Shown here one piece after another: positions 13,545-17,893 of a DNA stretch of 39,283 nucleotides. Within the stretch, counting starts at the first letter, position 1, and every line of letters begins with the position of its first letter. Made by a program: the position numbers and the translations under genes. The stretch is taken from positions 1 through 39,283 of the forward strand of contig NZ_ARZY01000042.1 of NCBI RefSeq assembly GCF_000568405.1, read 5' to 3'. The notes under the pieces were generated by a model. That model had not been told where the DNA came from and ran no database searches. It saw nothing but the letters and a program-made list of their open reading frames with translations. Source of the stretch: Catenovulum agarivorans DS-2. Its GTDB lineage: Bacteria > Pseudomonadota > Gammaproteobacteria > Enterobacterales > Alteromonadaceae.

Positions 13545-15158
13545 CTATTTATTAAATAATTTAATTAATTTATGCCAAATAGAGCTAATTTCATCATCCT
13601 GTTGGCTAAATTTGTCTAATTCAACTTTAACCAAATCAAATAGACCTTTTTGATCATCTGTTTCAGCTGGTTTGCCAGTAAGTATTTCTGAAGCTTGATG
13701 GACATGGTCAATTGCATAAATTTTAAAGGTGCCATTGCTGACAGCTGTTTTAATTTCGCTGGTTAAATTTAAATTTGCAACATTAGCTTTGGGGATTATT
13801 ACCGAGTGAACTTGAGAAGGCGCTTTTAATTTGGCTAGGGTATAAAAACCTTCAATTTTCAAATCAACACCACCGACGGCCAATACATTACCCAATTGAT
13901 CCATCGCACCAGTTACAGCAACGTGTTGGTTAATAGGAATGTTCGATATAGCCGACAGCAGGGCATATAATTCAGCTAAAGATGCACTATCGCCATCAAC
14001 TTCATGGTAAGACTGCTCAAATACTATGTTGGATGAAATTGGCAAAGGTTCGTTGCGCGCAAATACCTTGGCAACAAATGAAGATAAAATCATCATAGCT
14101 TTAGCATGGATGTTGCCACCTAAATCGGATTTTCGTTCTATATCGCCAATATCACCTTCACCGACAAAAATATTTGCGGTGATTCTAGATGGTTCACCAA
14201 ACTCAGCAAGCGCTGTTTCTACAACGGTTAAGCCATTAATTTGGCCAACCACAGCACCAGAGAAATCTACTTTGATACTGTTATTTTTAATTTGCTCGTA
14301 ATTAAATAGACGCGCAGTCGCGTGAAAGCCTTCTAGTTCTCGAACAGTTAATTCAACTGTTTGCTGACTGATGTTCGTTTGGATTCTTTGTTTAATTTGT
14401 TCGATGTAGTTTAAGTCAATCGACATCCAGTTTTGGTCTTCACATCTTCTAGCAAGTGCCCAAACAATTGCATTAAATGCATTTTCATCAAGTTGGTAAT
14501 TTAGGGCTTGTAGTAAAGCATTTAAAGCCGATAAGGTTGTTGGATTGATTTCAACTGCGTAGTCAGCCTCATAAATTCGGTCCTGACTAATTTGACCCAA
14601 AGCAGGGCATAAGTACAAAAGTTGCTGAATTGAGTCGTAGTCACCCAAGATAATTATCTTTTTATCCAGCTTAATTTTGCTATGTCTTAGTTGTTTAAAC
14701 TCTGCTTGCTGATAGTCTTTGCTTAACCACTGGGTGTCGAATACTTTTGTAACGGCTGTTTTAACCAATAAATCGGCGCAATCTAAATCTTGCAGCAATA
14801 AATGAGTCGAAAAAATTAAATACTCATTATCAGCGTTAAAGATTTCTCCAGGCGAAAAATGTGCTTTACCACTGGTGGTTAGCTTAAATCGTCCGAACAA
14901 GGTTTCTTTGCCGCAATTACAAATAAGTTGGTTGTCTAAGCCTAGCCAAGTTAATAATTGAGCTGTATGAGGTTGACCGCACAACAAATGAATCAGTTGA
15001 TCCACTTTATTGGTTAAATCGACAAAGCTAGCGAGCTGAGGTAATAGGGCGCTTGAGTTAATGTCATCCTTTGAGTAAGAATAGGACGAAAGTTTCTCCT
15101 CAATGCTTAATTGCTCTACTGATAATTCAAGTTGTGCAATATCCTTCGCGTTTGACAT
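13545..15158 (-). CDS. ycbZ: Lon-family protease homologue (YcbZ/LonH type)
   Basis: A 537-residue protein with a C-terminal Lon protease domain. Ser391 lies in EVDGDSASLAEL and Lys434 in VDLKIEGFY. They are 43 residues apart, the same spacing as the Ser679-Lys722 dyad of E. coli Lon, so the proteolytic site looks intact. Upstream parts include GEVGEPSRIT-like and GDIERKSDLGGNIHAKAMMIL segments typical of this subgroup. I see no Walker A P-loop in the N-terminal 250 residues, so ATP use is doubtful. E. coli YcbZ (586 residues) also sits next to fabA. Its substrates are unknown. No strong ribosome site is seen at ATG 15158. Confidence 0.88.
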   Translation of the reverse strand: MSNAKDIAQLELSVEQLSIEEKLSSYSYSKDDINSSALLPQLASFVDLTNKVDQLIHLLCGQPHTAQLLTWLGLDNQLICNCGKETLFGRFKLTTSGKAHFSPGEIFNADNEYLIFSTHLLLQDLDCADLLVKTAVTKVFDTQWLSKDYQQAEFKQLRHSKIKLDKKIIILGDYDSIQQLLYLCPALGQISQDRIYEADYAVEINPTTLSALNALLQALNYQLDENAFNAIVWALARRCEDQNWMSIDLNYIEQIKQRIQTNISQQTVELTVRELEGFHATARLFNYEQIKNNSIKVDFSGAVVGQINGLTVVETALAEFGEPSRITANIFVGEGDIGDIERKSDLGGNIHAKAMMILSSFVAKVFARNEPLPISSNIVFEQSYHEVDGDSASLAELYALLSAISNIPINQHVAVTGAMDQLGNVLAVGGVDLKIEGFYTLAKLKAPSQVHSVIIPKANVANLNLTSEIKTAVSNGTFKIYAIDHVHQASEILTGKPAETDDQKGLFDLVKVELDKFSQQDDEISSIWHKLIKLFNK

Positions 15159-15380
15159 AAGCGCTAACCTGTTTGCTGCAAAATACTAGGGCGCGAAGTA
15201 TATACCTAAAGTTGTTTAAATTGCGAGATAATCACTTAGGTAACAGAAGATATGGCGATAAACAGCAACAAATACGCCTCAAACGGTAATTTATAACAAT
15301 TTATCGGGGGAGGATGTTTTAATTACTGATATATATGAGTATCATACGCCTCTTAATTATTCCCATAATGTAAATAACAA

Positions 15381-15401
15381 GTGGCACTTGGTAGGTGTCA
15401 C
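15381..15401 (+). promoter_or_regulatory. thrS leader: tRNA-Thr(GGU) anticodon-arm mimic
   Basis: A stem-loop 19-39 bases before the thrS ATG. Arms GTGGCAC and GTGTCAC form seven pairs (one G-U). The seven-base loop is TTGGTAG: U33-like T, then GGT in the anticodon positions, then A37-like A. GGU is a tRNA-Thr anticodon. The ribosome site (AAGGA, 15409-15413) follows closely. In E. coli ThrRS binds such an arm (CGU loop) in its own mRNA and blocks the ribosome. Confidence 0.75.
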
Positions 15402-15419
15402 CACTGGTAAGGAAATATA

Positions 15420-17333
15420 ATGCCTATTATCACTCTTCCTGATGGCTCAACAAGAGAATTTGAGCAAGCCGTAACTGTAATGCAAGTTGCTGAATCCATT
15501 GGCCCTGGTTTGGCCAAAGCAACAATCGCTGGCCGTGTTGATGGCCAACGAGTAGACGCATGCGACTTAATTGAAAACGATGCTAAGTTACAAATTATTA
15601 CCGCGAAAGATGAAGATGGTCTAGAAATCATTCGTCACTCGTGTGCACATTTGTTAGGTCACGCAATTAAGCAACTTTTCCCTGATGTAAAAATGGCGAT
15701 TGGCCCAACCATAGATAATGGTTTTTATTATGATATCGACTTAGATAAATCTTTGACCCAAGAAGATATCGAAGCGCTAGAAAAACGTATGTTACAATTG
15801 GCGAAGACCAACTATGCAGTGGTTAAAAAGCCAGTAAGCTGGCAAGAAGCGCGCGACACCTTTGAACAGCGTGGTGAACCATACAAAATTGAAATATTGG
15901 ATGAAAATATTTCAAAAGATGACAAACCTGCTTTGTATCATCACGAAGAATACATTGATATGTGTCGTGGTCCGCATGTACCAAATATGAAGTTTTGTCA
16001 GCACTTTAAACTAATGAAAGTCGCAGGAGCATATTGGCGTGGCAACTCAGACAATAAAATGTTGCAACGCGTTTATGGCACTGCTTGGGCCGACAAAAAA
16101 CAATTAAAGTCTTATTTAACCCGTTTAGCAGAAGCAGAAAAGCGCGACCATAGAAAAATTGGTAAGGCACTTGATTTATTCCACTGGCAAGAAGAAGCGC
16201 CAGGCATGGTGTTTTGGCATAATGATGGTTGGACCATTTACAAAACATTAGAAAACTACATGCGAGAGCAGTTAGTTAAATACGGCTATGAAGAAGTTAG
16301 AGCGCCGTTAATTTTAGATGTATGTATGTGGGAAAAATCAGGTCACTGGGATAAATATGGTGACATGATATTCTCAACAGAATCTGAAAAGCGCACCTAT
16401 GCAGTTAAACCAATGAACTGTCCTGGTCACGTACAAATCTTTAATCAAGGTTTAAAATCGTACCGTGACTTACCTTACCGTATGGCTGAATTTGGTTTAG
16501 TTCACAGAAATGAACCATCTGGTTCATTACACGGTTTAATGCGTGTTCGTTCATTTACTCAAGATGATGCGCACGTGTTTTGTACTGAAGAACAGATCTT
16601 GCAAGAAGTATCTTCGTGTATAGAAATGGTGTTCGATACATACAAAACTTTTGGTTTTGAAGATATTGACGTTAAATTGTCTACCAGACCTGAAAAACGT
16701 GTTGGAAGTGACGAAATTTGGGATAAAGCCGAAAAAGCGCTAGAAGATGCATTAAAAGCTAATGGCCTAGAGTTTGAACTTCAGCCTGGTGAAGGCGCGT
16801 TTTATGGACCAAAAATTGAATTTACTTTGCACGATTGTTTAGGTCGCGCATGGCAATGTGGCACAATTCAGCTAGACTTCTCTATGCCTGAGCGATTGGG
16901 TGCAACATATGTTGCTGAAGACAATGATCGAAAAACGCCTGTGATGATCCACAGAGCGATTTTAGGTTCATTAGAACGTTTTATCGGTATTATGATTGAA
17001 GAGTTTGCTGGGCATTTCCCAGTTTGGTTAGCGCCAACTCAAGCTGTTGTATTGAATATTACCGACAAACAAGGTGAATATTGCGAAAATATTGCTAAAA
17101 TATTGAACAAAAATGGATTTAGAGCCAAAGCTGACTTGAGAAATGAGAAAATTGGCTTTAAAATCCGCGAGCATACTTTAAAACGTATCCCATACATGTT
17201 GGTTGTAGGGGATAAAGAATTAGAGAATGGTCAAGTTGCAGTACGTACCCGTAAAGGTGAAGACCTCGGTGTTATGTCTATTGAACAAGCCGTTGAACTT
17301 ATTCAAGGCGACGTTGACTGTAAAAAATTATAA
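15420..17333 (+). CDS. thrS: Threonine-tRNA ligase
   Basis: A 637-residue class II aminoacyl-tRNA synthetase that charges tRNA-Thr, with the usual domain order. The TGS domain is at 1-60. The editing domain that hydrolyses Ser-tRNA-Thr includes [11 protein letters not shown] and [10 protein letters not shown]. The catalytic core has the zinc ligand in MNCPGHV, motif 2 ([20 protein letters not shown]) and motif 3 ([14 protein letters not shown]). The C-terminal anticodon-binding domain begins near residue 535. TAAGGAAA precedes ATG 15420. The leader has an anticodon-arm-like hairpin, so ThrRS probably represses its own translation. infC follows after 20 bases, giving the conserved thrS-infC-rpmI-rplT order. 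Confidence 0.97.
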
Positions 17334-17353: not shown

Positions 17354-17893
17354 ATTAAAGGTGGTAGAAAAGGCCCAGAGGCCGGCAAAGCGCGTATTAA
17401 CGATGAAATCGACGTAAAAGAAGTACGTTTAATTGACGCAGAAGGCGAACAAGCTGGCGTTGTCAGCTTAAGAGAAGCTCAGGATATGGCTGATGAGGCC
17501 AAGTTAGATTTGGTTGAGATTAGTCCTAATGCGAATCCACCCGTCTGTCGAGTGATGGATTACGGTAAGTTTCTGTACGAAAAGAGTAAATCTGCTAAAG
17601 AGCAGAAGAAAAAGCAAAAACAGGTTCAGGTTAAGGAAGTTAAATTCCGACCTGGAACTGACATAGGCGACTATCAGGTAAAACTACGCAACCTGACTCG
17701 CTTTTTAGAAGACGGTGACAAAACCAAAGTAACGATTCGCTTCCGCGGTCGTGAAATGGCGCATCAAGAAATTGGTATTGATATGATGAATCGTATCAAA
17801 AATGACTTATCAGACTTGGCTCAAGTGGAATCTTTCCCAAGCCGAGTTGAAGGTCGCCAAATGATCATGGTGTTGGCACCAATTAAGAAGTAG
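17354..17893 (+). CDS. infC: Translation initiation factor IF-3, AUU start
   Basis: Begins at ATT 17354 (AUU codon) with GGAGGA at 17341-17346. The product is 179 residues, starting [17 protein letters not shown], close to E. coli IF-3 (180). Any start at a later standard codon would remove most of the N-terminal domain. The N-terminal domain holds [14 protein letters not shown], and a Lys-rich linker ([12 protein letters not shown]) leads to the C-terminal domain with [19 protein letters not shown]-3 binds 30S subunits and rejects non-standard starts, so the AUU start gives negative feedback, as known in E. coli. An ATG at 17347 opens only a three-codon reading frame. Confidence 0.96.

Follow-up and report, generated by a model that had tools for sequence, protein, structure and literature searches.

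Does the thrS mRNA of Catenovulum agarivorans DS-2 carry an anticodon-arm mimic of tRNA-Thr next to its ribosome site, and if so, is it an operator of the kind described in E. coli? We addressed this in a 39,283-nucleotide stretch of contig NZ_ARZY01000042.1 (positions 1 to 39,283, forward strand; hereafter the window), combining a reading of the leader with comparison of thrS leaders from related and more distant genomes.

A hairpin at the thrS ribosome site

As read from the sequence, a hairpin, GTGGCAC-TTGGTAG-GTGTCAC (15381-15401), lies directly 5' of the thrS ribosome site (Table 1). Its stem of seven pairs includes one G-U, and its seven-base loop (UUGGUAG in the RNA) carries U33 at 15389, GGU at 15390-15392 and A37 at 15393, just as the original prediction had it. 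Beneath the stem and an A/CAC internal loop, CA (15378-15379) pairs with UG (15405-15406).

Table 1 Features of the thrS leader and gene in the window (positions of the window).
Feature	Coordinates	Strand	Basis
Candidate thrS promoter, TTTTAA (15317-15322), 17 nt, TATCAT (15340-15345)	15317-15345	+	Weak, 8/12 matches
A/U-rich linker 5' of hairpin, candidate ribosome docking stretch (domain III-like)	15353-15377	+	Role by analogy with E. coli (domain III, available text of PMC3858243)
Whole operator element	15378-15406	+	Lower pairs and covariance-model match
Hairpin stem, 5' strand, GTGGCAC	15381-15387	+	Sequence and paired changes in alignment A1
Anticodon-like loop, TTGGTAG (N34 = G15390, G35 = 15391, U36 = 15392)	15388-15394	+	G35-U36 kept in 101/101 leaders
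Hairpin stem, 3' strand, GTGTCAC	15395-15401	+	Sequence and paired changes in alignment A1
Conserved CACTG tail	15402-15406	+	CACTG in 100/101 leaders and CACTA in 1, CACT being part of the selection criterion
Shine-Dalgarno sequence (SD), TAAGGA	15408-15413	+	Identical to E. coli thrS SD (UAAGGA in the available text of PMC3858243; L111 sequence)
thrS, threonyl-tRNA synthetase (ThrRS), ATG at 15420	15420-17333	+	NCBIfam TIGR00418, 785 bits

The window ThrRS is identical to E. coli ThrRS at 459 of 637 aligned residues, and infC is the next gene. The apparent infC start is an ATT at 17354-17356, 20 nt past the thrS stop; E. coli infC likewise starts at ATT. The divergent neighbour of thrS (13545-15158, minus strand) is a relative of Lon-like proteases that scores under curated cut-offs.

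Folding of the window sequence does yield the hairpin, with energies not convincingly better than those of dinucleotide shuffles over 15370-15422 (z -1.11), 15200-15450 (z -0.16) or 15352-15440 (z +0.46). As the surrounding energy is ordinary by this measure, the single sequence alone is no proof of the hairpin, and the evidence for it is comparative. At gathering score, neither the window nor ten relatives had an Rfam match; relaxed thresholds brought up nothing in E. coli and, in the window, nothing but weak matches of no relevance (two with E<=10 in 15150-15500).

Conservation and paired changes among thrS leaders

We assembled 110 thrS upstream regions, comprising 29 genomes reached via the ThrRS protein, the best 80 of 589 named loci, and E. 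coli; species are possibly repeated between the 29-genome and 80-locus samples, and a 30th genome of the protein search was left out because it had only a distant synthetase match. Each leader was scored for a hairpin signature of at least six of seven stem pairs, a 7-nt loop and CACT after the stem, with the loop letters unconstrained. The signature is present in 101 of the 110 leaders, E. coli included, and every one of these has G35-U36 in the loop, whose letters were not among the criteria. Three species of the window's genus (L005-L007) show, by sequence and model matches, an operator whose stem is bulged by one base on its 3' side. The operator is absent in 6 of the 110 leaders (L027, L028, L029, L100, L102 and L108). 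The proposal of a tRNA-Thr anticodon-arm mimic that keeps G35-U36, analogous to the E. coli operator, is thus borne out comparatively. It had been staked in part on conservation of the loop and stem in relatives; that comparison was run and the proposal survived it.

In a larger set, partly chosen by the covariance model R1 itself (see below), 256 of 271 distinct leaders carry the signature, against 25 of 5420 shuffled leaders, and the 15 without it include bulged and tail-changed forms.

Pairing was followed in an alignment (A1) of 88 distinct elements from the 101 signature leaders. These rows were picked for pairing, so that pair counts in A1 are biased towards structure, and with this bias 98.4% of the cells in the nine-pair structure are paired. 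Two-sided changes are seen at six of the seven stem pairs and amount to 118 cells, where shuffles give 37.3. Covariation scores 0.535 in the alignment, 0.227 in shuffles and no more than 0.136 in slid controls. Below the internal loop, both lower pairs are standard ones in all 88 rows.

Genomic distribution of the element

When the window's genome was searched with R1, a model that includes the window itself, there was one match at E<=1 among the 150 of 1153 first-look candidates scored, namely the operator (E 2.7e-11). This single match gives no sign of a wider regulon. Across genomes, R1 matched 26 of 30 near relatives (E<=1), 8/8 genomes of the genus and 114/118 of the family (E<=0.001), 131/369 of the class (E<=0.01) and 54/299 of the phylum, 51 of the latter within the class, these counts including the window's genome and others used in building the model. 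Under strict filters, 238 of the 369 class genomes had no match at E<=0.01; together with the six leaders that lack the element, this indicates that many lineages can do without it or have a diverged form.

At loci L112-L227, several of which repeat a genome, a ThrRS gene is present in 108 of 116, and in 107 of these the element is placed 12-51 nt before the gene. No ThrRS is nearby in the other 8 of the 116 loci. The L222 match lies inside a frame that we take to resemble an RNA polymerase beta-subunit, and the L185 match just 5' of a frame presumably resembling csy1. At L148 (G332:C18:33393-33424), what looks like a real extra operator copy, near-identical to that genome's thrS operator, sits after an apparent tRNA 3' end with no ThrRS gene in the 3 kb examined, and may be a relic or a ThrRS decoy. 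Three genomes of one genus in another class of the phylum (G580, G724 and G750; L339-L341) carry an R1 match that contains an insertion (E about 1e-5), and no ThrRS lies in the roughly 2 kb examined.

Relation to the E. coli thrS operator

The mechanism of the E. coli thrS operator (domains I-IV) is described in reviews (available text of PMC9976931, PMC7373986 and PMC3858243). The window element resembles it in its place before the SD, its seven-pair stem and seven-base loop, G35-U36, the CACUG tail and TAAGGA. The E. coli loop (L111, TTCGTGT) has the same layout but C at N34 where the window has G, and the stem letters differ. Upstream, E. coli also has a further anticodon-like hairpin, ATTTAGC-ATTTGTTG-GCTAGAT, whereas the window shows none and its presumed leader is shorter. 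Since the layout is shared and the E. coli operator is a described one, the window element is of a known kind; the features that place it there are a hairpin directly 5' of the SD, the seven-pair, seven-base form established by paired changes, G35-U36, and the CACUG tail with the internal loop. We consider it very probable that the element is a thrS translational operator, equivalent to the anticodon-like domain II, and, judged from sequence, it is a conserved and almost certainly functional operator of the E. coli kind. Two lineages carry tandem copies of domain II: in L109 (XeTr1) and L147/L150 (G381), two such operators lie 37 nt apart 5' of thrS. The record used for E. coli (L111, NZ_CP141089.1) is a 4.9-Mb entry labelled plasmid yet carrying thrS, probably a mislabelled chromosome.

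In operators of this type, the CACUG and internal-loop motif positions ThrRS. Nine E. coli ThrRS positions were compared in the window protein: 502, 575, 577, 583, 600 and 609 are identical, and 443, 489 and 605 differ. Of these, 575, 600 and 609 contact the anticodon. Torres-Larios et al. reportedly extended the thrS operator in 2002, through a conserved RNA motif, to a subset of Gram-negative bacteria, of which the window would be one more; entry 1kog, which appears among ThrRS structures, is presumably the operator crystal structure of that year. In a search of limited texts and limited wording, nothing on point about a thrS operator beyond E. coli was among the literature matches listed.

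Other leader types were considered. Control of thrS via its leader is also seen in Bacillus thrS and thrZ, whose leaders are T-boxes and bind tRNA, not ThrRS; a T-box leader was rejected for the window, which has no Rfam T-box match. A filter for Thr-rich leader peptides matched 2 of 110 leaders (L057 and L076), and the idea was dropped. Binding of a synthetase to an anticodon-like element of its own mRNA is shared with yeast AspRS and HisRS (available text of PMC7373986 and PMC6542539), although the synthetases and the RNAs are other ones and the organism is a eukaryote.

One arm or two

Sequence analysis suggests that the window leader is probably a one-armed form of the operator. Scans for 7-nt loops miss E. 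coli domain IV, which has an 8-nt loop, and a wider scan was therefore used, for hairpins of 5-7 pairs with loops of 6-9 nt containing GU. It recovers E. coli domain IV and finds arms in L036, L104 and L037. Over the 188 nt that precede the window operator it finds no GU-loop hairpin, hence no second hairpin of the domain IV type, and there is nothing upstream in L002-L006; the matches in L007 and L008 fall within or close to promoter boxes, or in an A/T hairpin whose GU is not central. Because the scan also matches 49 to 133 of 200 shuffles, single matches mean little and absences carry limited weight.

The position of the promoter bears on the same question. Promoter-like boxes (TCGACA-17-TATGAT or TATTAT, 72-93 nt before the ATG) occur in 5 of 8 leaders of the genus, and the window and its sister L002 (86% ThrRS identity) have TTTTAA-17-TATCAT at -80 and -82. 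No good candidate was found in L006, of the same genus, and a standard promoter scan requiring at least 9/12 matches found none in 15100-15450 of the window. The thrS mRNA would most likely start near 15352, leaving a short leader made of the A/U-rich linker, the hairpin and the SD.

It is unlikely that the window operator is fully two-armed as in E. coli, a further hairpin upstream (GAGG/CCTC or another) also binding ThrRS. E. coli has two arms, and relatives often have a second one. In a family-based set (family members and 23 of the 80 named loci, picked by name after viewing the leaders; two unplaced), a strict hairpin of 5 Watson-Crick pairs and a 7-nt loop with GT at 35-36 is found in 24 of 116 placed leaders, compared with at most 8 for other dinucleotides. 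N34 of these upstream arms is G in 11, C in 5, T in 5 and A in 3, and in several leaders (L036, L292, L316 and L323 among them) the arm comes within about ten bases after a TATAGT box. Of 197 leaders taken without selection, 19 have a hairpin of at least 6 pairs before the operator with GT in its 7-nt loop, and other loop dinucleotides occur in 1-7 each, except AC in 39; by eye, we read the AC-loop hairpins as tRNA-Val genes 5' of thrS in more distant gammaproteobacteria. Against a second arm in the window stands the empty upstream stretch, and the GAGG/CCTC pairing, put forward in the original prediction as an acceptor-like second domain and called weak even there, does not fill it: GAGG (15310-15313) and CCTC (15349-15352) enclose no GU loop and straddle the candidate -10 box, the sister L002 lacks the GAGG side yet retains TATCAT and the operator, and GAGG would lie outside the RNA if the start near 15352 is right. 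Nor does E. coli offer a model for such a domain, as its operator has a second anticodon-like stem instead of an acceptor-arm equivalent (available text of PMC9976931).

Terminators upstream of the operator in relatives

Outside the window's genus, arms and terminators hint at an added transcriptional layer. In an earlier, 104-leader version of the family-based set, an intrinsic terminator lies no more than 160 nt 5' of the operator on the thrS strand in 25 leaders, whereas the other strand gives 4 and shuffles 1.2; a few of the 25 (L042, L250, L251 and L296) look unlike the common CACCC/GGGTG type. The longest upstream ORF is on the opposite strand to thrS at 14/14 loci checked, 8 of which have such a terminator, a point in favour of the terminator being part of the thrS leader; these ORFs are mechanical calls, ending 410 and 478 nt away in L034 and L036. 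Both an upstream arm and a terminator are present in 18 of 116 leaders. The combination, with an arm such as GGTCTG-ATGGTAG-CAGACC in which N34 varies, was seen in L012, L036, L254, L256, L257, L292 and L294, and also in L313, L316, L321, L323, L346, L349 and L350.

The terminator loop itself has GT in the anticodon place in L334, L335 and L336, three species of a four-species genus sample, and also in L338, as in ACACCC-CTCGTAT-GGGTGT-TTTTT; the loop is 8 nt in L336, and the fourth species (L337) has no NGU loop. This was noticed after the fact, and 8 of 27 terminators hold GT at some place in the loop, these four genomes included. At relaxed Rfam thresholds, L336 gave only an irrelevant weak match (InvR, E 0.38).

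These leaders could possibly be ThrRS-sensed attenuators, to judge from their layout; no antiterminator was identified in the relatives' thrS leaders. A broader and rather improbable idea is that the family's thrS leaders are modular sets of anticodon-arm mimics through which ThrRS would act at two levels, an upstream NGU arm in sister genera, or in four genomes the terminator hairpin itself, setting termination, and that the window's genus has been stripped to one translational arm. A ThrRS site on the nascent RNA would then decide whether transcription stops ahead of the operator. A terminator in a thrS leader is as such not new, being described for B. subtilis thrS and thrZ (available text of PMC3997798). 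A separate search on terminators and attenuation, Shewanella included, limited in texts and wording, found no paper.

Free and fixed positions of the anticodon-like loop

The GGU of the window had been taken to mark a particular isoacceptor. Among the 256 signature leaders of the larger set, position 34 is C in 118, G in 103, A in 22 and T in 13; position 33 is T (U33) in 213, and 35-36 are GT in all 256. Position 34 thus varies freely, GGU is one state of it, and the idea of an isoacceptor mark fails. That the mimic is tuned to one isoacceptor, for instance sensing tRNA-Thr(GGU) specifically, is accordingly very improbable. It would agree with the GGT and TGT threonine tRNA genes found in the window's genome and with G34 being the commonest state in a sample of the window's family (53 of 85 rows, five of which, L005-L007, L315 and L329, were misplaced by the script). 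Relatives have any of the four letters at N34, and A34 leaders occur in G008, G014, G015 and G025, where GGT and TGT are the only Thr tRNAs seen in a survey that used one BLAST query and scanned 21/30 loci. The isoacceptor idea and the upstream GAGG/CCTC domain are both rejected on present evidence.

Least probable of all is a mere structured translation-initiation or mRNA-stability element that does not bind ThrRS, which would fit evidence made up here only of structure and conservation, but GU is kept at 35-36 in 101/101 leaders while the stem and neighbouring loop bases vary, which argues against a plain structural hairpin.

Proposed mechanism and implications

ThrRS binding, repression and titration at the window leader are proposed by analogy with E. 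coli. Free ThrRS would bind the loop via its C-terminal anticodon-binding domain, reading G35-U36, while the internal loop and the CACUG tail would position it on the operator. Bound in this way, it would deny the 30S subunit access to the SD and AUG. An excess of tRNA-Thr relative to ThrRS would compete for the enzyme, and translation of thrS would go up. Most likely, then, spare ThrRS binds its own message and halts further synthesis.

Anticodon-mimic operators of thrS are already known from E. coli, and related bacteria commonly carry them; the interest of the present case lies mostly in the comparative picture of thrS leaders. That picture amounts to a natural experiment, in which G35-U36 and the tail hold constant against changes in the stem letters, at position 34 and even at U33; the pattern maps the determinants of ThrRS across a class and extends a textbook case of tRNA mimicry. 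If the window leader is truly one-armed, symmetric two-arm binding of the kind seen with the E. coli dimer would not be a universal requirement. Sister genera, with their arm and terminator leaders, in turn offer a directly testable case of a synthetase that may govern termination at its own gene as well.
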